Under the pieces are notes generated by a model that saw only the letters and a list, made by a program, of their open reading frames with translations, was not told the DNA's origin and did not search any database. Shown piece after piece: positions 2,826 to 35,394 of a stretch of 39,665 nt of DNA. Within the stretch, counting starts at the first letter, position 1. Every line of letters begins with the position of its first letter. Origin of the DNA: a virus; the IMG/VR virus record IMGVR_UViG_3300047471_000266, positions 1 to 39,665 of that record; one strand, 5' to 3'. The position numbers were made by a program, and so were the translations under genes.

Positions 2826-3155
2826 ATGGCCAACATCGACCTCGAAATTGCCCTTGTCCCGTTCAACATGGCCGGTGACCCCAACCAGCCGTTGCATCGC
2901 GGCGGCCTCAAGCAAATCGGCGTGGCCTTCAACGGGACGCCGGTCTATGTCGGAGACTTTTCCGGCGGCATGCCCACGGCTGACCTGCATACCGGCGTCA
3001 TCACGCTGGTGAATCCAGCGCCGAATCCGCCGACCAAGGCGAACTACATCATCTACAAGGGCGCGGGCCGCATTCTGATGAGCCCAAATTTCAACTGGTT
3101 GGCTCCTGATGGTCAGGACGGCCCCGGCTTCCTCTACATCGCACAGGAATACTGA
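2826..3155 (+). CDS. Hypothetical protein, beta-rich, precedes the TIM-barrel-like gene
   Basis: A 109-aa protein with mostly beta and loop character (GVAFNGTPVYVGDFSGG, then PPTKANYIIYKGAGRIL), unlike the charged helical proteins upstream. Ribosome site weak (AGAAGGG about 15 bases upstream). It sits 1 base before the 376-aa gene and shares its style, so it may be a partner of that protein, for example a small structural or attachment protein. That role is inference only; no homologue is recognised. Confidence 0.7.
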   Translation: MANIDLEIALVPFNMAGDPNQPLHRGGLKQIGVAFNGTPVYVGDFSGGMPTADLHTGVITLVNPAPNPPTKANYIIYKGAGRILMSPNFNWLAPDGQDGPGFLYIAQEY

Positions 3156-3156
3156 C

Positions 3157-4287
3157 GTGTCGGTCATGACCTGCATCGCCAGTTACCCCCAGACCGCCCC
3201 ACAGCCGCCCGTGACGCTTCCGGGCCGTCAGACCCTCATCCATGCCCCGACGCGCTTCGGCGGGGGCGTGTGGGCCGACACGGGGCAACTGGGGCGCATC
3301 CCGTCGTGGGGGCCGGAGATCGGGATGCTGACCGCCAAGGCTGACCGTCAGGCGGTCTATGCGGCGCACAAGGCTGCCGGAGCGCAGGGGTTGTGGTTCT
3401 GCACGTTCATCCACTATCAGGAAGATGGCGTGGCCTACCCGGACGGCATTGCCGGGTGGAACGACTTCACCGGCAACTTCAGCCAAGCCGCAGAACTGGC
3501 CTGCGAAATCCTCGAAGCCGGTCTGTATCCCTGTGTCGAACTCGGCGGGGACGAACTCGGCAGCCAGACGGTCATCGACCAGTTCCCGGCGTTCATGGCC
3601 GCGATGAAGTCCTCACGTCTGGGCGACCTCACCCAAGGCGGCCTGATGGTGACGCCGACGTTCGACAGTGACGCGGACGGGGACTGGTCTGACCCCGGCG
3701 ACAACTGGGCGCGGGTGTTCGTGGCGCTCCGAGCGCAGATGCCCGATGCGATGGTGCTCTGTCTGTGGCTGCCAGCAGGCTGGGGGAGATTGGGCGCCGA
3801 GAACCTGAACGAATCCGATGTCCACAACGCCGAAGCCTGCGTGGATCGCTTCTGCCAAGAGGGGCCAGCGACGACCGACTGTGAGTTCTTGGCCCCGTGG
3901 CCCGCGATTCTGCCGGGTTCCCAATGGGACAGCGAACATGGCATCTATCAGCCAAACTGGGCGTCTGACCCGTCCGGCTGGCTCCAGTTCGTGCAGATGA
4001 TGGCGCGACGTGTGCAAGCCGGATCGTGGGTGCCGCCACCGGATGAACCGTTTGACGTGCCCGGCGGCCTCGGGATCGGGGGTCCGCAGAACGGGCAACC
4101 CGTCACGGTGAGCGCCGATGCGCGGCACCCCACGACCTACACGTTCAACACTGGCCGTGGCGATACGACGTATTCGTGGGAAGAAATCAACACCTTTGGT
4201 TGGACGCATCAGGACGGCGTGACACCGGAACAACTCGACACGATCCGCATGGGCATTCGCCTCTGCGGTTGCAACACCAACGGCTAG
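3157..4287 (+). CDS. Large TIM-barrel / glycoside-hydrolase-like protein
   Basis: A 376-aa protein. GTG 3157 is chosen because AGGAA lies 8 bases upstream and it follows the previous stop directly; the longer frame upstream overlaps that gene. The pattern of alternating strands and helices, with acidic residues at strand ends (GLYPCVELGGDELGSQ, then MVLCLWLPAGWG), resembles a (beta/alpha)8 hydrolase barrel of about 270 residues. A Gly/Pro-rich linker and an 80-residue C-terminal domain follow (TYSWEEINTFGW). No signal peptide. It lies next to a holin-like gene and away from the virion cluster; it could be a receptor or capsule hydrolase or an atypical lysin. Catalytic residues are not assigned. 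Confidence 0.78.
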   Translation: MSVMTCIASYPQTAPQPPVTLPGRQTLIHAPTRFGGGVWADTGQLGRIPSWGPEIGMLTAKADRQAVYAAHKAAGAQGLWFCTFIHYQEDGVAYPDGIAGWNDFTGNFSQAAELACEILEAGLYPCVELGGDELGSQTVIDQFPAFMAAMKSSRLGDLTQGGLMVTPTFDSDADGDWSDPGDNWARVFVALRAQMPDAMVLCLWLPAGWGRLGAENLNESDVHNAEACVDRFCQEGPATTDCEFLAPWPAILPGSQWDSEHGIYQPNWASDPSGWLQFVQMMARRVQAGSWVPPPDEPFDVPGGLGIGGPQNGQPVTVSADARHPTTYTFNTGRGDTTYSWEEINTFGWTHQDGVTPEQLDTIRMGIRLCGCNTNG

Positions 4288-4296
4288 GAGCCTCCG

Positions 4297-4488
4297 ATGT
4301 TTCAGTTCTTCGTGCGAGTCATTCTCGGCGTCGTGCTCTACGTCGCGTTCTTTCTGTGTTTGCCGCCGGTGCTGCACCTGATGGGCTTCAGCATTGGCGA
4401 GGACATGCTGACGCTGCTCCATGTCGTGCTGGCGCTTGGCGTGCTGGCCTATGCCATCTGGGGCCGGCCCGTGCCGGTGCCCTGGTAG
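4297..4488 (+). CDS. Holin-like two-pass membrane protein
   Basis: A 63-aa protein with two hydrophobic segments (about residues 5-27, VRVILGVVLYVAFFLCLPPV, and 38-56, LLHVVLALGVLAYAIWG) separated by a short loop containing Glu and Asp, and a short Pro/Trp tail. Size and topology fit a class II holin, but no family motif is seen. AGGAG lies 7 bases upstream of ATG 4297. It ends in front of the long non-coding structured region. Confidence 0.6.
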   Translation: MFQFFVRVILGVVLYVAFFLCLPPVLHLMGFSIGEDMLTLLHVVLALGVLAYAIWGRPVPVPW

Positions 4489-4501
4489 TAGACTCTCTCA
4501 G

Positions 4502-4560
4502 CCGAACGGGAGGACACTGGGCGCTGTGGTTCCCCTAGACAGCGAGTTTTCCCGATTCGG
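4502..4560 (+). ncRNA. Nested stem-loop downstream of the holin-like gene
   Basis: Bases 4502-4511 pair with 4550-4560 (10 bp, one bulged A at 4555) and enclose an inner hairpin, CGCTGT 4522-4527 with ACAGCG 4539-4544, loop 11. A TTTT run (4547-4550) follows the inner hairpin, so the inner part could act as an intrinsic terminator. The outer stem suggests instead, or in addition, a defined RNA domain upstream of the larger fold at 4576. Confidence 0.5.
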
Positions 4561-4575
4561 CGTCGTGTTTTCAGT

Positions 4576-4713
4576 TTGGCGCGGCAGCACGGACAGGACG
4601 TGCCCCAACCTTCATGTCGCACATGTGGTGGGTCAAAGCCGGGTAGCTCCCGGTAGGACTGCGATTGCAGGCCGCCAGCGAGTATCAAGCCTCGCCCGCG
4701 CCAATTCGTTTTT
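4576..4713 (+). ncRNA. Candidate structured RNA, multi-branched, no known family
   Basis: A non-coding gap that folds on paper into a closed structure. P1: TTGGCGCGG 4576-4584 with CCGCGCCAA 4696-4704 (9 bp). Inside it: P2 4587-4591/4599-4603 (5 bp, 7-nt loop); P3 4604-4632 (CCC, ACC and CATGT pairing with ACATG, GGT and GGG, 11 bp with one bulge and a small internal loop); P4 4639-4643/4649-4653 (CCGGG/CCCGG); P5 4659-4662/4667-4670; P6 4678-4682/4691-4695 (GCGAG/CTCGC). P2-P3 and P6-P1 are contiguous, as in tRNA-type coaxial stacks. TTTTT follows at 4709-4713. It is too long, with the wrong loops, for a tRNA; no tag frame for a tmRNA. No coding frame here looks real. Confidence 0.55.
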
Positions 4714-4727
4714 CATAGGAGGCCCTG

Positions 4728-5099
4728 ATGGTGAGACTGCTTCGCTCCCGTGCCGTGTCCGCTGTCGCGCTCGTGCTGGCGCTGTCGATCGTATCGGCGT
4801 GCAATGAAAAGCAGGCCGCGGCTGAAGCCTTGATTGGGCTATCGCAGGCGGCCATCCTCGCCAATAGCACACTCGACGCCAACGGCAAGCCGCTGCTGTC
4901 CACGGCTGATACCGGCGCGGTGCTGCAATACGCGAATCAGGGGTTGGTCGTCATCCAAGCATCGGCTAGCGGTTGGAAAGTGGCGCTCAAGACGGGCTGG
5001 TCCGCGGCCGTCGATGACATTCAGGCGAAGCATCCCAACGCCGGGACGACCTTGCGCGTGGCGCTGGCGGCGGTGACGGCCGCGATCGGGGCGCTGTGA
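4728..5099 (+). CDS. Small lipoprotein
   Basis: A 123-aa protein with a basic N-terminus, a hydrophobic stretch and a lipobox VSAC (Cys25), so signal peptidase II processing is expected. The mature part is Ala-rich and helical (AAAEALIGLSQAAILAN), ending in a second hydrophobic stretch VALAAVTAAIGAL. AGGAGG lies 7 bases upstream of ATG 4728. It follows the structured RNA. The role is unknown: an outer-membrane lipoprotein for lysis (o-spanin-like) or superinfection exclusion are options, but no i-spanin partner is evident. Confidence 0.75.
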   Translation: MVRLLRSRAVSAVALVLALSIVSACNEKQAAAEALIGLSQAAILANSTLDANGKPLLSTADTGAVLQYANQGLVVIQASASGWKVALKTGWSAAVDDIQAKHPNAGTTLRVALAAVTAAIGAL

Positions 5100-5939: not shown

Positions 5940-6389
5940 ATGCGGCCCGGCATTAAGCCTACTCCACTTCAAGATCTATTCTGGCCAAAAGTCCTCAAAA
6001 CAGAAACGTGTTGGCTTTGGACCGCGACACTCAGCAACAAGGGATACGGAAAGATCGGCGTCTGTAATCCTCGTCGCGTGGCATCGGCTCATCGCGTGGC
6101 ATGGGAGTTAACTCACGGGCCCATTCCTGATGGCCTGTGGGTGCTCCATAAGTGCGATGTGCGCGCATGCGTGAATCCCTCTCATTTGTTCTTGGGAATG
6201 GCGAAAGACAACACCGACGATATGAACCGTAAAGGGCGACATCCGTGGGTTCGATTAGATGGCTTATGCAGAAATGGCCTGCATAACCTGAACCTTCCAG
6301 GAGTAAATGCGACTTGCCAATCAGGGAAAAGAAGGTGCCGTTTGTGCGCAAATGCAGGCCAACGGCGTCGATGGAAGAAAGTCACATAA
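5940..6389 (+). CDS. HNH homing endonuclease
   Basis: A 149-aa protein with the HNH_3-type core: CWLWTATLSNKGYG, then AHRVAWELTHG, then LHKCDVRACVNPSHLFLG, in which the His and Asn residues form the beta-beta-alpha metal site. The C-terminus has a second Cys set (CRNG...C...CRLC) that could be a zinc-finger DNA-binding part. GGAAGGA lies about 8 bases upstream. It is closely similar to the HNH protein at 22494 (shared HKCDV.ACVNP.HLFLG), suggesting within-genome or between-phage movement. It lies at the end of the rightward arm; free-standing homing genes usually cut a nearby site in an empty relative. Confidence 0.92.
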   Translation: MRPGIKPTPLQDLFWPKVLKTETCWLWTATLSNKGYGKIGVCNPRRVASAHRVAWELTHGPIPDGLWVLHKCDVRACVNPSHLFLGMAKDNTDDMNRKGRHPWVRLDGLCRNGLHNLNLPGVNATCQSGKRRCRLCANAGQRRRWKKVT

Positions 6390-11990: not shown

Positions 11991-13397
11991 CTACTTGTTC
12001 TCGCCGGTCAGATTCGCGAGCATCGCCGCGCGAAGGAGCGCCGGATCGATCTGGTTGAGGAGAATCCCGGCGTGACTCATCACGGCCGGGTTGCCCAACA
12101 GTTTCTTCAGCCCCGCGACCGCAATAGCCGCCGTGGGATTGTGCAACGCCCAATAGGTCGAGGCCCCGCTCACGACATCCCCCATCGACGGAATGACCGT
12201 GTTCTCTTTCGTCGCTCGAGCCGCTGATCGCTTGATCCCGACTTCGTTCATGATGTCTCGGTTCATCGATCGATACTGACCTGGTGGCATAGTGCTCGTG
12301 AGCGTGTCTCCGGACTCGCCAGATGCGATCTTCATCGCTTCGGTGTTGGCCGTGATGGGCTTGCCCGTCGCGGCCGCCCGTCGAGCCGCGTCGGTGCGGT
12401 TGTCCAGCACAGACTTGGCCGCATCGAGTTCCACGGGAGATAGCGTGGCTTGGCCTCCGCCGAATCGACTCACCACAGGCACATCGGGCGACGTGCGAAC
12501 GCCCGCGTTGATTTCTGCGGCCACGGCTGGCGCGATACGCTGTTCGGTCGCTGCGACAATCGGCGCGACCGGCACGGCCGTGGTCGGGCTGTTTCGTAAC
12601 GCCTGCTCTTTCGCGGCTTTCGCCTGTGCCAGTGGGACGGGATCTTCGGCCGTGGCGGCGGTCATCGGGGCGCCGCGCTCCAAGCCAGCATCGCGCACGT
12701 TAGTAAAGCCGTATTTGGTCGTCTCGGTCGGGGAGAGTCGGATCGACGCGCCGTAGACGGGTTTAGCCAACGCCTTCGGCGCTTCAGCCAAGAACGGCTG
12801 GGCCAGTAGGCCAGCGGCCTCGCCAGCGCCTTCCCACCCCTTACCAGCCGCGATGTTCTCGCCAGCCTTCACCGCTGCTGGGCCCACAAATGGAATCGCT
12901 CCCAGTGTGTGTCCGACCGCTTCCATGCCTTCACCTTGGCGGGCGGACTCATACGCCTGTTTCAGTTGGTGGCCCGATTCGCCCAGCGCGTTCGTGATGA
13001 CTTCACCCGCCATGCCAGCCGGGTCAGCGCCATGCCGAGCGGCCAGCGCCGGAAGGGCCTTCGCCAGTGCCGACGGCGTCCCTGTCTCGACCAACCCTCT
13101 CGCCGCATCGACCGGCGTGTCCTTGTTACCTTCGATGACCTGGTTGACCGCTTCGCGTGCGCCATATAGGCCACGCGCCATGTCCGCGAGTGGTCCCGAT
13201 CCACCGCTCAGATGGCCCACCACGGTCCAGAACCCATCGGCCGCGGTTGGTGCTGGCGGTTTCTTCGGCGCGATCGGATTGCCATCTGCATCGACAATTG
13301 TGCCCATCGCCAAGCCGCCTCCAGACGGAGGCTTGGCTGCCACGGGGTTGCCGTTGGCATCGACGATGCTGCCGATGGCGAGTTGCTGCTGGGGCAT
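11991..13397 (-). CDS. Internal virion / ejection-type protein
   Basis: A 468-aa protein. It starts with two copies of a short G(S/T)IVDA(N/D)GNP strand repeat (about residues 8-20 and 31-43), then long Ala/Gly-rich helices, including an amphipathic to hydrophobic stretch (HTLGAIPFVGPAAVKAGENI), and a C-terminal helical part. Fourth of four adjoining large proteins with this Ala/Gln/Gly-rich composition, the position of internal core or DNA-ejection proteins in short-tailed phages. Its ATG directly follows the upstream TAA start-stop boundary. No peptidoglycan hydrolase motif found. Confidence 0.7.
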   Translation of the reverse strand: MPQQQLAIGSIVDANGNPVAAKPPSGGGLAMGTIVDADGNPIAPKKPPAPTAADGFWTVVGHLSGGSGPLADMARGLYGAREAVNQVIEGNKDTPVDAARGLVETGTPSALAKALPALAARHGADPAGMAGEVITNALGESGHQLKQAYESARQGEGMEAVGHTLGAIPFVGPAAVKAGENIAAGKGWEGAGEAAGLLAQPFLAEAPKALAKPVYGASIRLSPTETTKYGFTNVRDAGLERGAPMTAATAEDPVPLAQAKAAKEQALRNSPTTAVPVAPIVAATEQRIAPAVAAEINAGVRTSPDVPVVSRFGGGQATLSPVELDAAKSVLDNRTDAARRAAATGKPITANTEAMKIASGESGDTLTSTMPPGQYRSMNRDIMNEVGIKRSAARATKENTVIPSMGDVVSGASTYWALHNPTAAIAVAGLKKLLGNPAVMSHAGILLNQIDPALLRAAMLANLTGENK

Positions 13398-14630
13398 TTA
13401 CTTGATGATCTTGTAAGTGCCGTCAGGCAGGAGTTGCCCGATGTGGCCGTTGGGAAACTGCTTCGTCTGTGGTGCGCCATCGGTCGGCGGCGCCAATTTC
13501 TTGTAGCCCGACAGGCCGTAATTGCTCACGACCTGATCCGCGCCGTCGGAATAATGCTTATAGGCGTTCTTGGCCAGAATGTCCGCGATGGTCAGCATGT
13601 CCTTCTTGATGTTGTCCGGCACCGGATCGCCCACTCGCGCCTTCTGAATCCAGCCATTCACGCGGTCATACAGATCGCCGGCACTTCCCGTGACGCCAAG
13701 CTCGGTCGTGTTGATGCGCTTGAAGCCATTCGAGGCCAAGACGGCCATCGTCGTGGTGAGCCCCTGCATCGCCGCGCCCACTTTGTTCCCGGCCGTGGCC
13801 GCCTCGATCATCGACCGCATTTCATCGGACGACTGCTTCGCGGTCAGATAGGGCTGCTCGTATTTGTTGCTGATTTCGTTAAGGCCGGCCAGATTCTTTG
13901 AGTTCGCACCACTCTGATCGGTGCCGATGACCTTGTTGTGCTCATAGGCCGCGTGAAACGCTTGATCTTCCGGTGTGACCGGCTTCTTCTGGTTCAAATC
14001 GGCATCGATCTGTAAGTAGCGTTCTTCCGGCGTCTGCGCCTTCGGCGTCGGATTCGCGGCCTTGTTCTGCGCGTCCAACCAGGTCGCATACGGTGCCCCG
14101 CCGAACCGAATCAGATCCGCTTGCGCGCCCACATCCTTCGGATTGGCGGCATAGGCTTTCGAGGCCGTCTCGAGACTCTGTTTGTTCTGTTCCCCTTCGG
14201 TCATCGCTCGAGTCGCCGCGAACCGCGTGGGCACTGGCACTGACTGGCTGCCGAACGGTCCCATCGGAATCGTGAACGGAGCCGTCTCGGTCGGCGTGGC
14301 GGCAAGACTGAAATCGCCCGTCCGCGCCTGTGACGCCAACTGCTCGGCGTTGAGCGGCGTCGTCTGCGACTGCGCCATCACGCCTTTGGTCGTCGCCGCA
14401 TCCTTCAACCGCTGTTCGTTGTCCTGCTTGATCGACTCGTTCAGCGTGTCCATGCGGTTCTGGTGCAGCATGTCCGCCATCGCGCGCTGACGGTCAGACT
14501 CCGAGTTCTGCTGCTCGATCGCCAGCTTCGCATTGGCGAGTTTCGTCGCCTGCGCATTCGCTTCAAGCTTCTGGAGCATGTCATCGAGCGACTGCCCCGC
14601 GAAGGCCGATTGGAGGCCGAGGCCAGCCAT
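13398..14630 (-). CDS. Internal virion protein, coiled-coil rich
   Basis: A 410-aa protein. Residues about 15-85 form a long charged helix (SLDDMLQKLEANAQATKLAN and beyond, QQNSESDRQRAMADMLHQ), a likely coiled coil. The centre is mixed, and the C-terminal third is helical with a compact end (KQFPNGHIGQLLPDGTYKII). Acts presumably in the virion core or during DNA ejection, by position and composition. It begins one base inside the upstream gene's stop and its TAA abuts the next ATG (TAAATG). Confidence 0.68.
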   Translation of the reverse strand: MAGLGLQSAFAGQSLDDMLQKLEANAQATKLANAKLAIEQQNSESDRQRAMADMLHQNRMDTLNESIKQDNEQRLKDAATTKGVMAQSQTTPLNAEQLASQARTGDFSLAATPTETAPFTIPMGPFGSQSVPVPTRFAATRAMTEGEQNKQSLETASKAYAANPKDVGAQADLIRFGGAPYATWLDAQNKAANPTPKAQTPEERYLQIDADLNQKKPVTPEDQAFHAAYEHNKVIGTDQSGANSKNLAGLNEISNKYEQPYLTAKQSSDEMRSMIEAATAGNKVGAAMQGLTTTMAVLASNGFKRINTTELGVTGSAGDLYDRVNGWIQKARVGDPVPDNIKKDMLTIADILAKNAYKHYSDGADQVVSNYGLSGYKKLAPPTDGAPQTKQFPNGHIGQLLPDGTYKIIK

Positions 14631-15643
14631 TAGGCCGTCACCGGCTGACGGTTGAGATAGTTCTTAATGAGGCCCGCGATGGACAATCCGGGCGCGAGAT
14701 ACCCCAGCACCGACTGGCCCGCATTGGGGGATGGCAGATTCGGCAACGTCGGCATCGGCGCCGTAGACGCCGCCGTGTAGCCGGTGTTGGGGTCGCCCTT
14801 CTGGAGCAGGTCCAGCGTGGCCGTGTTCTGGATGTTGCCGCCGATCGCGCCACGGTCAGGACCAAGGGCGGATGGACGTGCGCCGCCGGTCACAGTGCCC
14901 ATATGCGAGGCGACTTCAGGCGGAGGCGTGGCCTGAAAATCCTGCATGTGCTGGATGAGGGCGCCACGAAGCTGATCCTGGTAGTCCTGCTCCTGAAGTT
15001 TCTTCGCGAGCGTGGCGCGGTCAAGCTGGGCCGACAGGCCCTTCAGTTGCGTGCCGAACTGATTTTGATTCGCCTGCGCTTCAGCCGCTCGGCCCTGCGC
15101 CGCGCCGGAGTTGAGCGCCGTGAGTCCCGAGCCGATCCGTGAGAGCAGGCCGCCGGTCGTGAGCGCCCCGCCCCCGGCCGCCGTGCCTCCGGCCGCGCCT
15201 GTGCCGCCGACCACGCCACTGGCCCCGGCCGCGCCCCACCCTCCACCCAGCGGTGCGGCTGACGCGGCGCCCCATCCGCCACCGAGGGCCGCATCACCGG
15301 CTACGGGCGCCGCACTGGCAGCCCCGCCGCCCGCGCCCGCCGCCGCGCCTCCGCCCCCGGCAAAGAGGGCTGGAGCCGCAAGGCCCACTCCGCCCAGACC
15401 CACGCCGGCCAGTTTCATCCAGAGGGGAATCGACCCGCCCGCATTCTGAAACCGGCCCGCCGCCCATGTCGCATTGTCGCCCACGGGGAAGCCTTTGGAG
15501 GCCGCTAAGTCCTTGAGTTGCTGGAGCGCCTGCTGGTCGCCGTTATTGGCGTGCAGACTGAGATACTGAAACTGCGGATCGGCCTGAAGTGCCGCATTCA
15601 TTCGGTCGAGCATGCCCTGATCGGCTTCGGGAAGATTGGCCAT
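14630..15643 (-). CDS. Internal virion protein with Gly/Ala-rich segment
   Basis: A 337-aa protein. The N-terminal 60 residues are helical and acidic (EADQGMLDRMNAALQADP). Residues about 75-165 are extremely Gly/Ala-rich (GGGWGAASAAPLGGGWGAAG repeats), flanked by a hydrophobic stretch LAGVGLGGVGLAAPALF that could enter a membrane. A helical Gln-rich part follows (QLDRATLAKKLQEQDYQDQL). This mix is typical of ejection proteins that insert in the host envelope. Inference from composition and position. Confidence 0.68.
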   Translation of the reverse strand: MANLPEADQGMLDRMNAALQADPQFQYLSLHANNGDQQALQQLKDLAASKGFPVGDNATWAAGRFQNAGGSIPLWMKLAGVGLGGVGLAAPALFAGGGGAAAGAGGGAASAAPVAGDAALGGGWGAASAAPLGGGWGAAGASGVVGGTGAAGGTAAGGGALTTGGLLSRIGSGLTALNSGAAQGRAAEAQANQNQFGTQLKGLSAQLDRATLAKKLQEQDYQDQLRGALIQHMQDFQATPPPEVASHMGTVTGGARPSALGPDRGAIGGNIQNTATLDLLQKGDPNTGYTAASTAPMPTLPNLPSPNAGQSVLGYLAPGLSIAGLIKNYLNRQPVTA

Positions 15644-18061: not shown

Positions 18062-20020
18062 TTAGGGCGCTCCAGTCAGAATTTCAGCGGTCGAATCCCA
18101 GCGCACGAGCGTGAAGGTCGAATTGGCCGCCGAGGCGTCCCCGAGTTGGATGTCCACGACGATGTTGTCTGAGAAGTCGCTGTCATCGCCCCGAGGTCGC
18201 ACATAGGTTTCAGACCCGGCTGGCGCAATCGAGATATCCGCGGTTTTCGTCTCGGTGCCCCAATCCTTCGTGAGCGTCTGCCGGATGGTTGTCGCGGCTT
18301 GGGCCTTCGCGGTCAGAAACGCCTCGAGCACACGCTCGCGCCGCAGTTGCGACGTGATGTTGAAGGCTTTCGAGCGCACATATGCCTGATAACTCACGGC
18401 CCCGAAGTCCTGGTTGGAGGTGCCGTCCTGCCGCGCGAGCGTGGTCGCATCGCCGCGATAGGGCACGAGCGAGACGGGACGTGAGGAGGCCAACGTGCTC
18501 GAAAACGAGACGGAACAGCGCGCCGCCGCGAGCGGTCCAGTCCATTTCGTCCAGCCGCGCCGAGCCGACTGGCCATCCGAGACGCCGAGGGTCACGTTGA
18601 AGACGATCATCGTGTCCGGCGTATCCGAATTGCCCGTCGCGATCCACCAGATGACTTGCTTGCGCGCCTGATCGTAGATGCCATGCGCCGGGATGGACGC
18701 CGAGAGGTTCACCGTCGCCCAAATGTCGGTCACATCTTTGCCGAGCCATTCAATCTGCGACCCGAGCGTGATGCGGCGCGGGCCGTCGAGCGGCGAGAGG
18801 AAGTAAACGGCTGGGGCGCCGTTCGCATCTTCGCCCACGACCTGCGACTGGTTCGACACCGACCCATGCACGCGCGTGAGGACAAAGCGCCGATAGGGGA
18901 TCGTCGCGGACCCGGTTGGAATCAGCGCATAGATCCCGGCTGACTGAAAGGCATAGACGACGTTGTTAATCGGCCCCGATAGGCCGCGATCGATGCCGCC
19001 GCCGTTAATGTTGAGACTGATCCAGTCTGATTGCGCGAGCGTGTTCTGGAACCGTTCGTCATCGCCCAACGCGGGATTGGTTGACCCCAGCACGGGCGTG
19101 ACATAGACCCGACCAGGCACCGGGGCCACCGAATCTCCAGCCGTGGTTTCCCACACCCCAAGTCCGAGGAGTCGGTTGCCGTCCGAGACGAGATATTTCA
19201 CCGACGGAAACGGGTAGTTCGATCCAATGACCGGCGAGGCCGGATTGGTCGCATACGAGGACGGTGCGGCCGAGTCGTCATAGGTGGTGGTCGCGACGGC
19301 CACCTGCGCCAGTTGATAGAACGGTCCATTTGCGCTCGACGCAGAGGCAAAGACGACCCAATGCGTTTCGCCTTCGCTGGCGGCAGCCGGTTTGGTCACC
19401 CGTGCCGCGGCCCCGCTCCCCGAGGGCGTGAACGCCGTGGCCGCGGACATATTGGACTGGCTCACCGTCACGCCACCGACGATGCGCTGCCAGGCAATCG
19501 CGTAGAACCGAGGAATGGCGGCGTAACTCCCACCGCCGGTATCGGCCACGCCCGGGGCGGCGGGGGCCGGCAGTCCCGCCCGACGGACGTCCGTGGTCGA
19601 TTCCGCCGGGTTGTAGACGTGCAGCCGGTTCACGCCTGACTGATAGGCCAGATAGAACTTGCCGTTGAGTGCGGCGGCGCTGATCTCGGTCGGATGGCCC
19701 GTCACCGGATCTTTCAGCGTGAGATTGACCGCGGCGGCAATCGGCACCCGCAAGATCTTGGTCGTGCCGTCCGTCGAGACGATCCACAGTTCCGCGACGG
19801 TTTCATCCTGCGCGGGGATGAATCGAAACACACGGTTGTAGCCGGTAAAGGCATCACCCGTGAGGGTGACCGCCGCGGACCCGGGTCGTTTCGCGCAGAG
19901 TTGGCCCGACGACACGGTCACGTTGACGGCCTCCTGCGCCATGTTCTCGGGGATGTTCAACGGGTTATCCCAGCCGTCACGGCCCAGACATTCCGACCAG
20001 GAGAGATTCTGGGACGGCAT
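18062..20020 (-). CDS. Tail nozzle / tail tubular protein B-like
   Basis: A 652-aa protein. Starts MPSQNLSWSECLGRDGWDNP with an early phrase about non-overlapping strands and 'CAKRPGS', the way large beta-propeller tail proteins of short-tailed phages begin (RPG-type loop near residue 45). Long strand-rich body with repeated aromatic strands (RFYAIAWQRIVGG, VYFLSPLDGPRRI, KQVIWWIATGN). Size and position, right after the adaptor and before the fibre-type genes, fit the podovirus nozzle (T7 gp12-like role). The assignment is by architecture, not by close similarity. Confidence 0.75.
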   Translation of the reverse strand: MPSQNLSWSECLGRDGWDNPLNIPENMAQEAVNVTVSSGQLCAKRPGSAAVTLTGDAFTGYNRVFRFIPAQDETVAELWIVSTDGTTKILRVPIAAAVNLTLKDPVTGHPTEISAAALNGKFYLAYQSGVNRLHVYNPAESTTDVRRAGLPAPAAPGVADTGGGSYAAIPRFYAIAWQRIVGGVTVSQSNMSAATAFTPSGSGAAARVTKPAAASEGETHWVVFASASSANGPFYQLAQVAVATTTYDDSAAPSSYATNPASPVIGSNYPFPSVKYLVSDGNRLLGLGVWETTAGDSVAPVPGRVYVTPVLGSTNPALGDDERFQNTLAQSDWISLNINGGGIDRGLSGPINNVVYAFQSAGIYALIPTGSATIPYRRFVLTRVHGSVSNQSQVVGEDANGAPAVYFLSPLDGPRRITLGSQIEWLGKDVTDIWATVNLSASIPAHGIYDQARKQVIWWIATGNSDTPDTMIVFNVTLGVSDGQSARRGWTKWTGPLAAARCSVSFSSTLASSRPVSLVPYRGDATTLARQDGTSNQDFGAVSYQAYVRSKAFNITSQLRRERVLEAFLTAKAQAATTIRQTLTKDWGTETKTADISIAPAGSETYVRPRGDDSDFSDNIVVDIQLGDASAANSTFTLVRWDSTAEILTGAP

Positions 20021-25550: not shown

Positions 25551-26001
25551 TGATGGCCTCCAACTCCGAGACGGTGAGCCCCAACCGCACCGAGGCTTCC
25601 TCACGGCGGACTTTCTGTTCGGCTGGGGACAAGGCCGCCATCGGACGCGGGTCGTGTCCCGGCGCCGATCCGATGTCCCATGTCACCGTCACGGGGGACT
25701 TGTCGGTGCCTGGCACGGGGACATGATGCACGCGGTTCTCGAAGCCACGCGCGGCACATTCGGCGCGATATTGCGACTTGGTTTCGATCCAGACGGGTTG
25801 TGTGTCGAGATTCTCGACCCAGCGCGGGCCGCCCCAGAGCGTGTCTCCGTAGACCGTGGGTGAGGTCGGGCCGATAGGATCGGGACGATGGCCGAGCTGG
25901 CCACAGTCGGAGCAGCGGAGCGGCTGGCCATCTTCCGAGAGGCCCGAAAACGCGCCATGCGCGTCACAGACCCACGTTTTCCACACGAATCGGCGTCTCA
26001 T
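25537..26001 (-). CDS. Head-region hypothetical protein with Cys pair
   Basis: A 154-aa protein. ATG 26001 overlaps the portal stop (ATGA), so it is translationally coupled to the portal. N-terminus MRRRFVWKTWVCDAHGAFSG, then CSDCGQLGHRPD: a C...CxxC cluster that could hold zinc. The C-terminus is a charged helical tail (LSPAEQKVRREEASVRLGLT). A similar short protein after the portal occurs in related short-tailed phages, role unknown. Confidence 0.72.
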   Translation of the reverse strand: MRRRFVWKTWVCDAHGAFSGLSEDGQPLRCSDCGQLGHRPDPIGPTSPTVYGDTLWGGPRWVENLDTQPVWIETKSQYRAECAARGFENRVHHVPVPGTDKSPVTVTWDIGSAPGHDPRPMAALSPAEQKVRREEASVRLGLTVSELEAISGNR

Positions 26002-28175
26002 GCGAGGGGCGGCGGTCCGCTCCGCTCGCCCGTTCGGTCGGCCTGATGCTGGACGATGGGCGCCATCTTTTCGGCCCCGCCCGGATGCGGGAGTTGGCGC
26101 GTGCGGCCCCGCGGCTGGGGTCCGGGCGGCACGGCTTGGGGCGCGGGCGCCGACTGAGGCGTCGGCGGCTGCGCCGGGGGCAACGGATGGCCTGTCGCCG
26201 CGGCGACCGTCTGCGTGACCGTGTCGGGACTGATGATGAGACCGAACTGCCGCAGGAGTTCGATGACGCTCGCGTCTTGCAGATCCTCGGCCTTGAGTGA
26301 AATGGTCGGCTTGGGCGGATCGGGCGGCGCTTGCGGAATCTGCGGGATCACAAACGTCGCTGGATCGAGCGAGAACCGCTCGCACACATACGACAGGAAC
26401 GCCACGCGGTTGAAGTGCGGATCGCGCGCGAGCATGTTGTAGGCGTTCAGCAGCCGCGTCTGTTCGGCCGCCGCATCCTCGCGCATGGACGAATCCGGCT
26501 TGATTGAGAACAGGAACCGCATGGGCGTCGGATCTTGCGCCGCCTGCTGCCACGTCGCCCAGCCGTCGGGGCCGAGAATGGGGAGCAGGTCGGCCTGATC
26601 CGCGAACATCTCGAGGAGCGCCGCCAGTTTTTCCGCGCCGGCCGCATACCAGGCCAGCACGTTATTGCGTTCCTTGGTGAGCCGCGTGTCGGTCGCCTGC
26701 TGAATGAGCGACAACTCAGTGGCGGTCTTCGATCCGCTCGCGACGACGGATTGCTGATTGGCCCCGAGCGCCCAGAGGCGGTCGATGTCCTGCTGGGTGA
26801 TGTTATTGAACTCAAAGTTTTCGCGCTGGAAGACCGACATGCCGATGGGCTTCACGGCGAGGTTCGGATCGCCCTTGATCGGGATGATTTCCTGAATCTC
26901 TCCGCTCACCATCTTATCGACCACGGTTTTGTCGACCATGTTCGTGTCGACGCCGCGCTGCGGGAGGCTGCGCCGCTTCTGGAGCATCATCTGCGTGCGG
27001 CCGAGCGAGAGTTCATCGGACGCGGCCCGCGAAATGGTGCAATCGGACGGCGCATAGGCCGATCCGGTCATCGGTCGGATGGATAAGAGGTGAATCGGGT
27101 TGCCGCGCAGGCCCTTGACGACGCGGCCGGCGCGATCGAGCGTCTGAAACGGCGAGGGTTCATGCACGGCGACCGTCGGTTGCATTTTGTCGGAGGCCAT
27201 GAGGACGAGTCGGCGGTAAATCTCGGGATTCTGGACCGTCGAATCGTAGACCGACGCCCGATACCAGATGACGTAGGCGTGCGAGCACTCGGAGAGGAAC
27301 TCCGAATCGTTTGGGGACGACAACGTATCGCCCACCGGGCCGACACCGAGAGATTTGCGCGGCAAGAGCCGCTGATCGGCGGCCTGATCCTGGTCCAGGT
27401 CCACTTCGTAGCCGAGCCACGGGGCTTTGGCCCAGTCGGTGGACCGAAACTGCGCCGGAATGAGCAGTTTTTCTGGTTCGATCCGGTCCCAGTAGAACCG
27501 GCACCAGAGTTTCTGCGGCACGGCCTGCATCGGGGGCGGCGCTTGCGGCTGAAACGGCGTGCCCGCGAGTGGACCGGGAGGCATCACCGGACCAGAACTC
27601 GTGATGCCAGCGAGAGGAGGCCCAGACGGCGCGGCCGGCGGCGCCGCGACCGGCATCTGGACGTTCGTCGTCACGGCCTCATAGCCGAGGACGGAGGCGC
27701 CAAAACCGGCCGGGCACAGATGGTCGAGGAGGAGCGTATCAACCAACGCCTCGGCGTCAATTTCGTGCGGGCCGAGGTAGTAATTGACGACTTCGCCCAC
27801 GAGAGACGCCCGTTCGATCGTCGGCGGCTGATTCATGCCGCGCTTGGGCGCGACGACGACGGTGGGTGTTTGGAAAAAGAGTTGCGCCTTCTTCTGCTCA
27901 GTCTGGTAGAAGTCGACGTTGACGCTAATCGTCTCACGCGATCGCACGCCAAAGAACTTGGGCGACTCGCCGCGATAGCGCGACAGGTTCGCCTTCCAGC
28001 TCGGCAGTTCTTTCTTGCGCCGCTTCTGCGCGTCGGTGACTTGATCTTTCCAGAAGGCCTCGCTGCCCACGCCCTGCATCGGCACGGGCACCTTCAGCGT
28101 CGGGGCGGCGTCGGGATCAACTTCGACGCTCGTCGCGCCGTCAGGACTATTCGGAGGCGTCGGAACGACGGCCAT
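25998..28175 (-). CDS. Portal protein
   Basis: A 725-aa protein. It has the size and features of podovirus portals: an N-terminal part with KDQVTDAQKRRKKELPSWKAN and the virion-core strands (ETISVNVDFYQTEQKKAQLF), a Pro/Gly-rich insert at about residues 175-235, a clip/stem region with charged strands, the long helix region with TATELSLIQQATDTRLTKER, and a Pro/Gln-rich C-terminal tail. Twelve copies would form the DNA entry ring at the capsid vertex and bind the terminase and the adaptor. It follows the large terminase gene by 12 bases. Family is certain by context; close relatives are not named. Confidence 0.9.
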   Translation of the reverse strand: MAVVPTPPNSPDGATSVEVDPDAAPTLKVPVPMQGVGSEAFWKDQVTDAQKRRKKELPSWKANLSRYRGESPKFFGVRSRETISVNVDFYQTEQKKAQLFFQTPTVVVAPKRGMNQPPTIERASLVGEVVNYYLGPHEIDAEALVDTLLLDHLCPAGFGASVLGYEAVTTNVQMPVAAPPAAPSGPPLAGITSSGPVMPPGPLAGTPFQPQAPPPMQAVPQKLWCRFYWDRIEPEKLLIPAQFRSTDWAKAPWLGYEVDLDQDQAADQRLLPRKSLGVGPVGDTLSSPNDSEFLSECSHAYVIWYRASVYDSTVQNPEIYRRLVLMASDKMQPTVAVHEPSPFQTLDRAGRVVKGLRGNPIHLLSIRPMTGSAYAPSDCTISRAASDELSLGRTQMMLQKRRSLPQRGVDTNMVDKTVVDKMVSGEIQEIIPIKGDPNLAVKPIGMSVFQRENFEFNNITQQDIDRLWALGANQQSVVASGSKTATELSLIQQATDTRLTKERNNVLAWYAAGAEKLAALLEMFADQADLLPILGPDGWATWQQAAQDPTPMRFLFSIKPDSSMREDAAAEQTRLLNAYNMLARDPHFNRVAFLSYVCERFSLDPATFVIPQIPQAPPDPPKPTISLKAEDLQDASVIELLRQFGLIISPDTVTQTVAAATGHPLPPAQPPTPQSAPAPQAVPPGPQPRGRTRQLPHPGGAEKMAPIVQHQADRTGERSGPPPLA

Positions 28176-28187
28176 GCGTGGCGGCGA

Positions 28188-29807
28188 TTATACGCCGTCT
28201 GCGGCGGAAGCCCGCAAGGCATCAATCTCGGCGCCGAGTGATCCCTCCGGATACGTCACCTCGGCGGCGCGGTCGTAGGGCGACGGGCGACTCATGCAGA
28301 AGTAGCGGGCCTCATCGAGCGCGTGGTCATCGCCGGTCGTATCCACATCTTCCGGATTGACCGGATCGGATTGGGCCAAGGGCAGCGTGCGACGGAAGTA
28401 GCGGCAGGACGGATCGACCGTGAGCCACGGATGGCCCGTGCCGTCATCGCGCAGAAACGACCGCAGCCGCTCCCAGCCATTCTGCCGGTCGCTCACACTG
28501 GGCCGAAAGCGGAGACGCCCGCGGTCGATCGTCGCGAACTGTTCGGCAATCGACTCGCCCAACTTGTCCTGCGTCTTGGCAAAGAGCGCCCGGTCGCAAA
28601 TGGAGTAGCGATACTGCTCGAGGTCGAGTCCCAAATCCTTATCGCGCGCCAACACCAGCGCGGCCACCTCGGCCACGTCCTTGTCCTGAAACTTCATCTC
28701 GCTCACCCGATGCAGATGCCCGTCAGGCAGAATCAGCCACCAACCGACGCACCCCGGCTGCGTCCGGCCCCAGTCCATCGACCGACCCCATTCGGCCGTC
28801 CGGACCGCCGACCGATCGACCTCGGCCACATGCCACGGGGCCCCGGCCTTCGTCTCGCGCCAGGTCGAAAAAAACTGCCCCGCCAGCACGGTCCAGTCCG
28901 CGTGCCGGAGCTGCTGATACCGCACGGGATTATCCAAATGCGTGAGCGCCAACTGCGCCCCATAGCCGGCCCCGAGATACGGGTTGTCCTCGAGCGTCGA
29001 CAGAATCGCCACCCAGAATCGCGGGTCATAGTGGACGCGGGCCTCGGGCACCAGCTCAAAGTTCGGCGTATGGTGAATGAACATGTCGGCCAAGATCCGC
29101 GCCGACGCGCCGCCAGGATTCGTTAACGGCCGAAACCACGGGCCGCCCGCCGCCAAGACCGACGCCTTCGATGACCGCGCGCGAGACGCCACCTGAAAGA
29201 GCGGCCCCGGCTGAAACGTGGAGGCCTCATCGGGCACCACATCGTCATACTCGGTCGAGAGATACTTATCCAGGTCGTTCACGTCATCCAAGTGTCCGCA
29301 CTTGATGAGCGCATTCGTCTTCGGAAACCGCATGATGCGGGCCGCACTCCGAAACTCCACCCCAATCCCCAACTCATTCAACCGCCGCGCATCTTCCTCC
29401 ATGCGCAGCAGATGCGTGCTCTCGAGCTCCGGAAACGTCCGCCGCAAGAGCAACCCCTCATACCCCTCGAGCGTCATCGCCCGCCGATACATCGACCATC
29501 GCCCAAAGAGGCTCTTGGTCGTCCCGGCCGCCCCGCCCCCCAGCACATTGAACGCACTCCCGTCGCTCTCCCCCGGCCGGTGCTGCCGCTCCATCTCCAC
29601 CTGAATCGGCAACGGCACATAGATCCACACCCACGCGCCGCGCACCTCCGCCCCCATCGCATACCGCTGCTGCGCCGAGAGACACGCCGGCGTCTTACAC
29701 CAGTAATGCGCCCCAAACCGATACAGCCCGCCCTGACACCAACAACACTTCGCCACCCCATGTGGCACTGGTTCGATGGGCTCAGGAGACAGACCGACGT
29801 CACTCAC
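28188..29807 (-). CDS. terL: Large terminase subunit (ATPase and nuclease)
   Basis: A 539-aa DNA-packaging motor. GTG 29807 is chosen because it overlaps the lipoprotein stop as GTGA; a longer frame starting at 29870 lies inside that gene. Residues 21-42 hold a Cys cluster (CCWC, then WCKTPAC), a possible zinc knuckle. Walker A GGGAAGTTKS at 90-99, Walker B YDDVVPDEAS at 187-196 (D193, E194), coupling motif TNPGG near 230. Nuclease acids: D345 in SMDWGR, D405 in SICDRALF, D493/D494 in TGDDHALDEARY. It takes DNA from TerS and drives it through the portal. Confidence 0.93.
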   Translation of the reverse strand: MSDVGLSPEPIEPVPHGVAKCCWCQGGLYRFGAHYWCKTPACLSAQQRYAMGAEVRGAWVWIYVPLPIQVEMERQHRPGESDGSAFNVLGGGAAGTTKSLFGRWSMYRRAMTLEGYEGLLLRRTFPELESTHLLRMEEDARRLNELGIGVEFRSAARIMRFPKTNALIKCGHLDDVNDLDKYLSTEYDDVVPDEASTFQPGPLFQVASRARSSKASVLAAGGPWFRPLTNPGGASARILADMFIHHTPNFELVPEARVHYDPRFWVAILSTLEDNPYLGAGYGAQLALTHLDNPVRYQQLRHADWTVLAGQFFSTWRETKAGAPWHVAEVDRSAVRTAEWGRSMDWGRTQPGCVGWWLILPDGHLHRVSEMKFQDKDVAEVAALVLARDKDLGLDLEQYRYSICDRALFAKTQDKLGESIAEQFATIDRGRLRFRPSVSDRQNGWERLRSFLRDDGTGHPWLTVDPSCRYFRRTLPLAQSDPVNPEDVDTTGDDHALDEARYFCMSRPSPYDRAAEVTYPEGSLGAEIDALRASAADGV

Positions 29808-30118
29808 CGCGCACACCCAAATGCCCCGCGCGCCGCCCCGCCCGGCATCTGCATAAACCACGTCGCACACCCCACAACCGGCGTCACCACGAGCCCAGGC
29901 ACCTCACTCGTCTCCACCGCCGCCGTCCAGAACCCGGAGGCTATGAAGGAGTCCACCCCGCCCGCCTCGACCTTCGCACTCCCGCCCGCCGACACGTTCA
30001 CCGTATACGTCACCGCATACCGCGTCGGCCGCATCGGCGAACACCCCGTCACCGACGCAATCACCCACGCCGCAATCAACCCAAAGAGAATCGCCTTCAC
30101 CAGTTCTTCCCTACTCAT
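29804..30118 (-). CDS. Small lipoprotein upstream of TerL
   Basis: A 104-aa protein. ATG 30118 lies inside the stop region of the previous gene (ATGAGTAG). The signal sequence LVKAILFGLIAAWVIASVTGC has a lipobox VTGC, so a lipid-anchored protein is expected. The mature part is beta-rich (RYAVTYTVNVSAGGSAKVEAG) and Gly-rich near the end. It is translationally coupled to terL, an unusual place for an envelope protein; it could be an outer-membrane lysis protein or receptor-blocking protein. Confidence 0.7.
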   Translation of the reverse strand: MSREELVKAILFGLIAAWVIASVTGCSPMRPTRYAVTYTVNVSAGGSAKVEAGGVDSFIASGFWTAAVETSEVPGLVVTPVVGCATWFMQMPGGAARGAFGCAR

Positions 30119-30510: not shown

Positions 30511-31038
30511 CTACTCTGCGTCTGGCTCAGACTGGGCGCGGAGGGTATCAGCGATGGCGGCGGTCAGCGCCGCGCCGAGATCTTGTCGGTCGATTGACAC
30601 CACAAGGGCTTGTGGTTCAGTCACTTGCGGCGTTGTGTCAATTTCTTGACTGCGGATTGCGCCTGTTTCGGGCAAGGTCTGATAATGGCCGTTATGGTTA
30701 GCGTCTGATGGGGCCTCGAGCCGCTCAGCCGTGACCGTTTTCACCGCATCCCACGGGTTCGGGCCTAGAGGCTGAGCCCCAGTGCCGATCATCACAATCA
30801 CCTGGCTGCTAGTGAGCTGACCCACAACCTCGGTCGGCACCAGGCGAGCGCAGATCTGGTAGAACGCCGTTTGATTCTTGGCCTTGGCCCCCCACGCGGC
30901 TAGAGCCTTCCAACCGCCGTTCGCTTGAAAGGCCCTGAGCAGGGCGTCACGGAAACTCGCGTTATAGCGGTTAGGGACGCCTGGAGTGCGACCACGACCG
31001 AGGGTGAGGTTGGCGATATTGCCGTGAGGGTTAGCCAT
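30511..31038 (-). CDS. Small terminase subunit-like protein
   Basis: A 175-aa protein. The N-terminus GRGRTPGVPNRYNASFRDAL then FYQICARLVPTEVVG is the pattern of phage terminase small-subunit-like proteins that begin with a GRPKGxxN motif and a helical LxKxxP segment. The rest is polar, with an acidic C-terminus. It is the first gene of the late leftward operon, directly downstream of the repeat region, and TerL follows within three small genes. It would bind packaging-site DNA and recruit TerL. Ribosome site weak (TTGAAAG). Confidence 0.65.
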   Translation of the reverse strand: MANPHGNIANLTLGRGRTPGVPNRYNASFRDALLRAFQANGGWKALAAWGAKAKNQTAFYQICARLVPTEVVGQLTSSQVIVMIGTGAQPLGPNPWDAVKTVTAERLEAPSDANHNGHYQTLPETGAIRSQEIDTTPQVTEPQALVVSIDRQDLGAALTAAIADTLRAQSEPDAE

Positions 31039-31111
31039 TACAGACTTTCAATCGGAAGTTTGTCGGATTCTAACAAAGAGCGGCTGTGTAGTTCTTACAC
31101 TCTTCCAGACA

Positions 31112-31342
31112 GTCCGCGGACAGGGACATGGACGGACACCCCTCTAGAGAGAGGGGGTTGTCCTGTCCGGTTGTCCGGAAGGTGTCCGTGAGGGAAAGTG
31201 TCGGACGGCTGTCCGCGGCTGTAAGTCTTTGCCGTGGTGATGGTTGCTGACTTGTCCGGACAACGGTCGGACAGTTTCGGACACGAGATTTTCGCGCTGT
31301 CCGGAGCGCAAAACTATGCTCAGAATGATTAGAAGTTGTCCG
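31112..31342. repeat. Iteron-like array of TGTCC(GG) motifs in the 327-bp gap
   Basis: The non-coding stretch 31039-31365 holds 14 copies of TGTCC or its complement between 31118 and 31341: GGACA at 31118, 31124, 31134, 31258, 31269 and 31279; TGTCC at 31159, 31164, 31172, 31183, 31210, 31253, 31298 and 31337. Most extend to TGTCCG or TGTCCGG. They include two palindromes, GTCCGCGGAC (31112-31121) and TTGTCCGGACAA (31252-31263). About 0.4 would be expected by chance. An AT-richer stretch follows (31310-31335). It lies just after the helicase-like ATPase gene and before terS: a candidate replication origin, packaging site or operator. Confidence 0.8.
31134..31163. other. Long hairpin in the iteron array
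   Basis: GGACACCCCTCT (31134-31145) pairs with AGAGGGG (31150-31156) and TGTCC (31159-31163), with AGAG as loop and a 2-base bulge, giving 12 bp. It contains a TGTCC unit on each arm. No T-run on the minus strand side beyond ACAACC, so not a classical terminator. It could be a cruciform or a pausing site. Confidence 0.55.
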
Positions 31343-31365
31343 GAGAACTGGTAAAGCGTGTGTGC

Positions 31366-32622
31366 TCAATGCTTTAGCCCGATTAATCCGTTCGGAAGCG
31401 TGACGTAGTAGCCCTTCTCGAGTCCGCGGCGGACGGTCTTGGAGACGGTGTCCGGCTTGTCTTCGGGTAAGGCGCTGATGATGGCTTCCATGCTGAGGGG
31501 TTGAAATCTGAGCGTGGCATGGAGGCGCTGGCGCGTCGTAAGGGTGAGGGCGAACTCAGGCGTATCGGTGGCCGAGGTGCGCTGGATGCGCGTGGCGTCC
31601 GGGCCGAAATAGATCGAGAGGGCCATGGGGGCGCGGAGCCGGCCAGTGTTGCACTTGCGCTGAGACAGCAGCACTTGGATTTCCGGGCCGTCGTCGTCCG
31701 GGTTGGAGCGGCGGATGTGCCAGGTCGCTCGAGCGGAGTTCTGCCAGAAGCCAGAACCGAAGGGCTTCTTGTCGCCGTCTTCGGCTTTGGTGACGTGGGC
31801 GATGAGGAGCGACCCGCAATTGAGCGAGCGGAGCGCGCGGAAGTAGGCGATGGCGGATTCGGCGGCTTCCGGAGGGCCCTGGCAGCCGAAGGCGGCCGAA
31901 TCGAGGATGACGAACTCGACGGCGTGCTCGAGGCAGATATTGCGCAGCCGGTCGGCTTCGATAATGAGGGGGCGCTCGCAGCGGGCGTAGAGGATGGGCG
32001 GGAGCGCGAGCGGGTAGAGCTTGTCGAGCCGGCGCCGATGGTCCGCGCCATCGGATTCCCAGTCGGCATAGAGCACGCGTGAACCCGTGAGCGCGATCTG
32101 GCCGGCCGCCCAGAGGCTCAGGAGGCTTTTGGCCGAGCCGCCGTCACCAAAGAGGATGGTCGGTTGCTTCTTGGGTAAGGTCCAGCCGTGGAGGTCGAAT
32201 TCGCCGGCCTCGGGCGGCAGGTCCACGTCTGCCAACAGCGAGATGCTGTCGCCGGTGCGCTCGGCCTGAATCACACGGAAGCAGAGCTCTGAGAGCCAGC
32301 CCTCCCAGTCCATGTCGTCAGCAAGCGCTCGTTGGGCGAGGTGCTTGGCCCTGGTGCTTCGGGCTTGCACGCTGGACAGGTTGAAATCGCCAGCCGAGAG
32401 GATGCCCTCGATGGTCCTGGCGCCGGCCATGTTGAGTCGGACGACGAGCTCACCAATGAGTTCGTCCCGCTCCCGTCGCAGCCGCCCGATATCGAAGGTG
32501 AGGAACGCTCGCGGCACGGCGAGGCGGTAGGCCGAGAAGCCGGTGACGTTGAAGGTGCGCGGCCCCCAGTCGTTCGGATGGGGCGCAGGCACAGCATCAC
32601 GCGGTTTATCCGCGCGACTCAT
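31366..32622 (-). CDS. RecA-like ATPase / RepA-DnaB type helicase
   Basis: A 418-aa protein. RecA-fold ATPase core from about 150 to 310: Walker A GDGGSAKS (159-166), VLYADWESDG (183-192) with the catalytic-type Glu, Walker B FVILDSA (237-243), and sensor SLLIAHVTKAEDG (271-283). About 130 N-terminal residues form a helical domain, and the C-terminus (PLSMEAIISALPEDKPDTVS then VRRGLEKGYYV) is a winged helix. This matches phage and plasmid AAA_25/RepA-type replicative helicases. It is the only replication protein seen, and it sits beside the repeat array. Its own ATG has no ribosome site; translation likely couples to a leader peptide at 32642. Confidence 0.82.
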   Translation of the reverse strand: MSRADKPRDAVPAPHPNDWGPRTFNVTGFSAYRLAVPRAFLTFDIGRLRRERDELIGELVVRLNMAGARTIEGILSAGDFNLSSVQARSTRAKHLAQRALADDMDWEGWLSELCFRVIQAERTGDSISLLADVDLPPEAGEFDLHGWTLPKKQPTILFGDGGSAKSLLSLWAAGQIALTGSRVLYADWESDGADHRRRLDKLYPLALPPILYARCERPLIIEADRLRNICLEHAVEFVILDSAAFGCQGPPEAAESAIAYFRALRSLNCGSLLIAHVTKAEDGDKKPFGSGFWQNSARATWHIRRSNPDDDGPEIQVLLSQRKCNTGRLRAPMALSIYFGPDATRIQRTSATDTPEFALTLTTRQRLHATLRFQPLSMEAIISALPEDKPDTVSKTVRRGLEKGYYVTLPNGLIGLKH

Positions 32623-34328: not shown

Positions 34329-34570
34329 GCAACCGCGCCGACTTGGTTTGGGCCGCCGCCTTCGCGCTCGAGTTCGGCAGCGCCTACACGCGCTGGCGCA
34401 GCATCGAACAGGACCGCCTGTTCGGCACGCTGCCTTACAGGAGCACGCCCGATCTGGCGGCCTCCAGCATGGCTGAGACGCGAGCGATGCAAGCGGCGGC
34501 GATGGACGCCTGCGTCGACGCTGACCGAGCCGTTGAAGGCTTGCGGCGCATCATGGAGGAAGGCAAGTGA
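34325..34570 (+). CDS. Small helical hypothetical protein
   Basis: An 81-aa protein with GTG start in GTGA. GAGGAGG lies just upstream (34315-34321). Helical, with aromatic residues (LVWAAAFALEFGSAYTRWRS) that suggest a hydrophobic core or peripheral membrane contact, and an acidic tail. No family recognised. Confidence 0.7.
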   Translation: MSNRADLVWAAAFALEFGSAYTRWRSIEQDRLFGTLPYRSTPDLAASSMAETRAMQAAAMDACVDADRAVEGLRRIMEEGK

Positions 34571-35394
34571 GCGACCCGGTCCTGCTCATCGACTTGTCAT
34601 CGGACGCCTACCATGCGTCTGACGCCTGGGGATCGCACTCGCTGAAGGCCATGCGGAAAGGTCCACCCGCACGGGTCATGTGGGAGCGCGAGAATCGCCG
34701 CGAGTCTGACGCGATGGCGTTCGGCACGGCGGTCCACATGGCCGTGTTTCAGCCGACGCTCTACGCCGAGACGTATGTCGCGAAGCCGGACGGCATGAGC
34801 TTCGCGACGAAGGACGGCAAAGCGTGGCGAGACGCGCACGCCGACCGGCACATCCTGACTTACGTCGAGGCGCTGACGGTCGATCGGATGCGCTTGGCCT
34901 TGTCTGCGAAGTCCCGCGTGGGCGAAGCGTTGACGCGCGCCACGCATCAGGAAGCGTCGATCTTCTGGTCCGATGCGCTCACGGGCGAACCGTGCAAGGC
35001 GCGACCGGACTGCCTGGATGCGCGGTATCTCTACGACCTGAAGATCAGCCGTTACGCGGGCGGCGACTTGGCGTATCGCGCGTTCGTGGAAGGCTGGATG
35101 CACCAGCTCGCACACTATCGCACCGGCGCGGAAGCCGTGGGGCTGGGCGTGCTCGGCGCGCGGCTGATTGTGATTCACCCGCAAGAGCCGTATTTCGTCT
35201 ACACGCTGGAAATCAAACCGGACGCGCTCGACCTGCTCGCGATTGAGAACAGCCAGACGCTCTACGCGCTCAAGACGTGCCGAGAGGCCGAGACGTGGCC
35301 AGGCACGCCGGACGAGTGGATGTTGATTGAACCGCCGCCGTCTGCGCTTATCGCGTCAACCGTGTTGGAAATGGTGGAGGACATTGATGGCTGA
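34567..35394 (+). CDS. RecE/YqaJ-type PD-(D/E)XK exonuclease
   Basis: A 275-aa protein. PD-(D/E)XK fold with GTAVH (residues 53-57), EAS (129-131), KARPDCLD (144-151) and the strand LYDLKIS (155-161), the metal-binding D148, D157 and K159; QLAHYRTGA follows with the conserved Gln/Tyr helix. This is the pattern of RecE and DUF3799-type exonucleases. It would degrade one DNA strand to make 3' overhangs for recombination or repair. No RecT or Beta family annealing protein is recognisable nearby; the next gene may be its partner. Overlaps its neighbours by 4 and 8 bases. Confidence 0.85.
   Translation: MSDPVLLIDLSSDAYHASDAWGSHSLKAMRKGPPARVMWERENRRESDAMAFGTAVHMAVFQPTLYAETYVAKPDGMSFATKDGKAWRDAHADRHILTYVEALTVDRMRLALSAKSRVGEALTRATHQEASIFWSDALTGEPCKARPDCLDARYLYDLKISRYAGGDLAYRAFVEGWMHQLAHYRTGAEAVGLGVLGARLIVIHPQEPYFVYTLEIKPDALDLLAIENSQTLYALKTCREAETWPGTPDEWMLIEPPPSALIASTVLEMVEDIDG

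Follow-up and report, generated by a model that had tools for sequence, protein, structure and literature searches.

The window, i.e. the whole stretch of DNA analysed here (39,665 bp), has identical 127-bp ends (positions 1-127 and 39539-39665), and because of this identity the record probably represents a genome that is complete, either circular or with terminal redundancy. The element described below belongs to a unit of small plus-strand genes and lies towards the distal end of it; a RecE-like exonuclease (34567-35394) and an HNH nuclease (5940-6389) are encoded in the same unit. On the minus strand are the terminase gene (28188-29870) and most of the other large genes; the placing of the element in the RecE-like/HNH unit leaves the 'late' RNA proposed in the initial annotation unsupported. 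Four of the large minus-strand genes (25998-28175, 18062-20020, 11991-13397 and 14630-15643) gave no match in PHROGs, which suggests that the phage belongs to a poorly described group, and a scan with the 724-aa protein encoded by the first of them (25998-28175) recovered a near-identical contig only. Between two genes of the same strand there is also a gap of about 330 nt (31038-31366, minus strand), which holds 12 of the 33 TGTCCG/CGGACA words of the genome and includes the palindrome TTGTCCGGACAA. After GC correction, no part of the window has a lower fold energy than 31060-31366 within this gap (z -6.4), and a comparison of the gap with the related phages gave no match. The gap may be a cluster of iterons or operators, or else a structured leader.

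A gap of 239 bp (4489-4727) separates the stop codon (4486-4488) of an ORF for a 63-aa predicted membrane protein (4297-4488, plus strand; 'holin-like', from the ORF list) from the ATG (4728) of a gene for a 123-aa predicted lipoprotein (4728-5099, plus strand), whose signal peptide and lipobox were read by eye. The initial annotation had pointed to this space as conspicuous, giving its size as 240 bp, and had proposed a structured RNA at 4576-4713. The individual features reported there were all recovered: the 9-bp closing stem (4576-4584/4696-4704; TTGGCGCGG/CCGCGCCAA) is perfect by direct pairing, the five hairpins (4587-4603, 4604-4632, 4639-4653, 4659-4670 and 4678-4695) are all present in the minimum free energy (MFE) fold, and TTTTT is located at 4709-4713. 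The MFE fold of 4570-4715 reached -63.1 kcal/mol, versus -51 (sd 4.4) for shuffled sequences (z -2.8); for the domain bounded by the closing stem (P3), folded by itself, z was -3.3, and none of 500 shuffles was as stable. The reverse strand of this stretch folds equally well (z -2.8) and its GC-corrected fold energy takes rank 69 among 3953 sliding windows of the genome, so that fold energy is insufficient to establish an RNA. Stems of at least 9 pairs at a loosely fixed distance occur at about 0.8% of random starts. A search of the gap with Rfam at gathering thresholds gave no match, and neither a sigma-70 promoter nor a terminator-like site (a GC hairpin with an immediate U-tract) was found within it.

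Related phages were reached via the lipoprotein gene, whose homologues show 97% (L003), 87% (L004) and 84% (L005) identity; a further match, L002, is an identical contig. The comparison set consisted of three full copies of the element (the window, L004 and L005) and one partial copy (L003). For the block 4489-4587, identity to the window is 97% in L004 and 85-86% in L005; unalignable sequence flanks it on both sides, so that it forms a conserved island of about 95 nt. By this comparison the limits of the RNA scaffold were set at 4489-4704 (plus strand), directly after the membrane ORF, and it comprises a 5' domain and the P3 domain. The 5' domain contains the hairpin P1-P2 (4501-4561), in which P1 (4501-4515/4546-4561) is a 15-bp hairpin with one bulged A (4555) and is capped by P2 (4522-4527/4539-4544). 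The U-rich linker CGTGTTTTCAG (4564-4574), present in variant forms in L004 and L005, joins P1 to P3. The 5' arm of the P3 closing stem (4576-4584), kept in both of these relatives, and its complementary 3' arm (4696-4704) enclose a variable interior (4585-4695), to which the five predicted hairpins belong. A conserved tail, TTCGTTTTTCAT, with the ribosome binding site (RBS) AGGAGG of the following gene (4705-4722), completes the region, and the order of the tail in L004 and L005 matches that of the window (TTCGTTTTCA-AGGAG). In the relatives the conserved block opens with the TAG(A) stop of the upstream membrane ORF; in the window, where the ORF has a stop of its own, this TAG directly adjoins it as a second one. 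The comparison therefore supports a structured RNA at 4576-4713, but the conserved RNA starts 87 nt further upstream, and its best-kept helix, P1, falls outside the interval that had been put forward as the whole structure.

The P1-P2 core is identical in the window and L004 at 61 of 61 bases, while the lipoprotein genes of the two phages differ at 28 of 300 positions. Where the helices do change, pairing is largely kept. In L004, the P3 stem is lengthened to 14 pairs and two of its G-C pairs are replaced by G-U. The 10-pair P3 stem of L005 has U-A in place of one C-G, a compensatory change, and P1 of this phage carries two pair-preserving G-U/A-U switches. Taken jointly, P1 and P3 comprise 25 pairs in three sequences, with 98.7% of the cells paired, the sole unpaired cell being pair 10 of P3, which is broken in the window. 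One pair of this set is changed on both sides, and four others on one side with pairing preserved. In a control in which the partners were moved by 1-3 columns, the fraction of paired cells fell from 98.7% to 35-54%, which speaks strongly for the structure; with so few sequences, the covariation is supportive without reaching statistical significance. Small indels also distinguish the copies, several of them not multiples of three, and reading frames are not common to the copies; the indels therefore argue against coding in the gap, and a protein-coding function was ruled out on this basis. Conserved coding in the homologous gaps, which the initial annotation had named as a finding that would count against an RNA, was not encountered.

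The partial copy in L003 matches the element over its first 19 nt and then diverges, and its P1 has 13 pairs with the register unchanged. This helix has been re-paired: positions 5, 6 and 12 differ on both sides, and where the other copies carry the bulge there is a G-U pair. The re-paired P1 is the strongest independent sign of selection on this helix, with the reservation that L003 was aligned to the structure by hand. L003 has P1 only, followed by a 62-aa ORF instead of P3. At the same place (3728-3830 of L003) a different strong hairpin with two inner arms was seen (z -4.7), followed by the 62-aa ORF (MAKIKMLWNDKYVPV...). A possible interaction between CUGGG and the P2 loop (CCCUAG), considered by eye, was rejected, as it fails in L003. 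A further relative (L133), found with the 109-aa upstream protein, encodes a membrane ORF that is 62% identical, and when checked it contained neither the lipoprotein gene nor the RNA. Upstream of the element lies a large gene (3109-4287 in the window, 3611-4636 in L004, 547-1530 in L005) that gave no Pfam match; it is 90% identical in the window and L003, and the genes at this place in L004 and L005 have no match to it.

One reading of the locus would be a GC-rich spacer without a functional RNA, showing an ordinary fold and similarity due to recent shared ancestry. The rank of its fold energy (69 of 3953) is in keeping with this, as is the covariation control, in which, with three rows only, the observed value was reached by 156 of 500 shuffles and was thus not significant. 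However, recent ancestry accounts poorly for a P1-P2 hairpin conserved in L004 above the level of coding sequence when its flanks and the P3 interior are unalignable, or for a 13-pair P1 maintained in register in L003 despite divergence (at least 13 pairs are found at about 0.04% of random starts). We consider this explanation distinctly unlikely. From the comparison of the copies, the gap probably holds a structured RNA, and P1 and P3 are very likely to be real RNA helices.

The interior of P3 presents a different picture. Its length is 111 nt in the window, 95 nt in L004 and 77 nt in L005, and no homology was found between the three interiors, which align no better than shuffled sequence (540, 179 and 70 of 1000 shuffles reached the score in global alignment, and 765, 552 and 32 of 1000 in local alignment). 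Folded without the closing stem, they are no more stable than expected by chance (z -1.7, -1.3 and +0.3), which is also what a spacer lacking a functional RNA would show. In the MFE folds, the interior of the window copy forms five hairpins, that of L004 four, and that of L005 two branches. Since the interiors are unalignable and differ in branch number, the hairpins of the window are regarded as real pairings that are not conserved; they make up most of the structure first proposed.

A tRNA-type fold with coaxial stacks had also been considered possible, although a tRNA or tmRNA as such had been excluded. The exclusion was upheld for the window copy, for which the tRNA-type fold gained no match either: ARAGORN detected no tRNA at default settings and noise only when relaxed, and Rfam, at gathering and at lax thresholds, gave no tRNA or tmRNA. 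At lax thresholds, the L004 interior aligned weakly over the full length of tRNA-Sec, at 20.7 bits (gathering score, 47; E 0.068 with all families searched and 0.0028 within its own phage), and it is the best tRNA-Sec-like place in this 42-kb phage. The L005 interior gave a twister-sister match of 18.8 bits versus a gathering score of 34 (E 0.06-0.10 and 0.0042); this candidate was rejected, as it is far below the gathering score and mainly the hairpin loop UGCAAG matches well. As a background value for this family, a 15.2-bit match was obtained at an unrelated place of G001. Both resemblances are treated as leads only.

These properties bear on the idea that the element gives rise to a trans-acting noncoding RNA, the P3 domain being cut from the operon transcript at the U-rich linkers and its interior changing fast because it targets or mimics a host factor, for example as a tRNA-like decoy. 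Such a role would fit the retention of the P3 frame while the interior is replaced, the presence of U-rich linkers on either side of P3, and the tRNA-Sec-like interior of L004, which can be drawn as a full-length cloverleaf with the T-loop UUCGACU. On the other hand, a decoy of this kind is difficult to reconcile with a score so far below gathering and with the lack of a default ARAGORN tRNA; inspection by eye also showed an anticodon loop without U33 and no CCA in L004. Moreover, the window copy has no match of any sort and the three interiors lack a common fold. A trans-acting RNA is thus rated as fairly unlikely. A related and very unlikely proposal is that P1-P2 and P3 form a scaffold that would swap whole structured RNA modules between phages, as decoys or anti-defence RNAs against changing host factors, some of the modules resembling tRNAs or other functional RNAs.

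The sharp boundaries of the conserved island could instead mark a DNA-level recombination joint by which small genes are shuffled between mosaic phages, with hairpins that are incidental or act as DNA. An abrupt change of homology is seen at the element: the membrane ORFs upstream of it are of different kinds in the window/L003, L004 and L005, yet end at the same TAGA, and L003 diverges 19 nt into the element. Judged from their sequences, the related phages are mosaic, and a search for the window terminase in them gave no match. The base changes, however, preserve pairs including G-U, which favours RNA, and the element always lies on the sense strand from stop codon to RBS, both of which adjoin it in the window, L004 and L005 (3 of 3 full copies). 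In addition, no second copies of the element were found inside the window or the genomes of its relatives, and a joint of this type is considered unlikely.

Further copies were also sought elsewhere. IMG/VR was searched with DNA patterns that covered the P1 loop, the junction between P1 and P3, the 5' end and the 3' tail; among the matches listed (verified by script) were the known phages and chance matches only. Nothing was found in GTDB genomes with one exact pattern and one protein-alignment scan. There was no match of the element DNA in cultured phages and plasmids, nor of the lipoprotein in cultured phages. A covariance model of P1-P2 (R1) recovered the three copies and, weakly, L003 (14.4 bits, E 0.57). 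On present evidence the element is rare, being known from four related genomes, and would be a control or spacer RNA of a kind not described before.

Each of the two helices, P1 and P3, is followed by a short U-rich stretch, which brings to mind an attenuator, a terminator or a put-like antitermination RNA acting on transcription of the unit. The put RNAs of phage HK022, which are active as nascent hairpins, provide a precedent. Nevertheless, the gap contains no terminator-like site and the U-runs start several bases beyond the stems; P3 encloses a 111-nt loop, and the element is located near the distal end of the unit. Regulation of this kind therefore appears highly improbable.

The favoured reading, to which we give about an even chance, is a cis-acting intercistronic leader or spacer RNA. 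The RNA would be part of a polycistronic plus-strand transcript (transcription as an operon is presumed), starting where the small membrane-protein gene has its stop codon and reaching the Shine-Dalgarno sequence of the following gene. Its scaffold would consist of two helices, the P2-capped P1 and P3, each followed by a U-rich linker; they may hold the downstream gene apart from its upstream neighbour, and may shape mRNA stability or ribosome access at the downstream gene. The P3 interior, freely exchanged between relatives, would be either cargo that is tolerated or a contact surface that changes fast. The reading stops short of a specific cis switch, because in L005 a different gene follows and the predicted openness of the RBS and the linkers differs from copy to copy.

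If real, the element represents a phage RNA not described before, and its evolution follows an uncommon pattern: the two helices and the flanks are kept and the enclosed 77-111 nt are wholly replaced. This pattern offers a clear handle for deciding if intercistronic RNAs of phages serve only as spacers or carry fast-changing functional modules.

Among known systems, tRNA-Sec/class II tRNA (RF01852) is approached by the L004 interior through its D-loop-like AGUUGGG, long variable arm and T-loop; it differs in the sub-gathering score and the missing U33 and CCA, and the resemblance is absent from the window and L005. With twister-sister (RF02681), the L005 interior shares the hairpin loop UGCAAGU, but not the flanking conserved strands and pairs. 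GOLLD is likewise a phage-associated structured RNA with a variable part, which in GOLLD bears a tRNA; unlike the present element, which has no Rfam match, it is several times longer. The GOLLD RNA is named in PMC12286853. Parallels in kind are the candidate phage and microbiome RNA motifs (PMC8040213, PMC2864571), which are also structured intergenic elements recognized by comparison and have no known function. Significance is judged there by R-scape (E < 0.05; e.g. PMC8040213, PMC2864571). In contrast to those motifs, the present element is represented by 3-4 copies only, and combines a conserved frame with a non-homologous interior.
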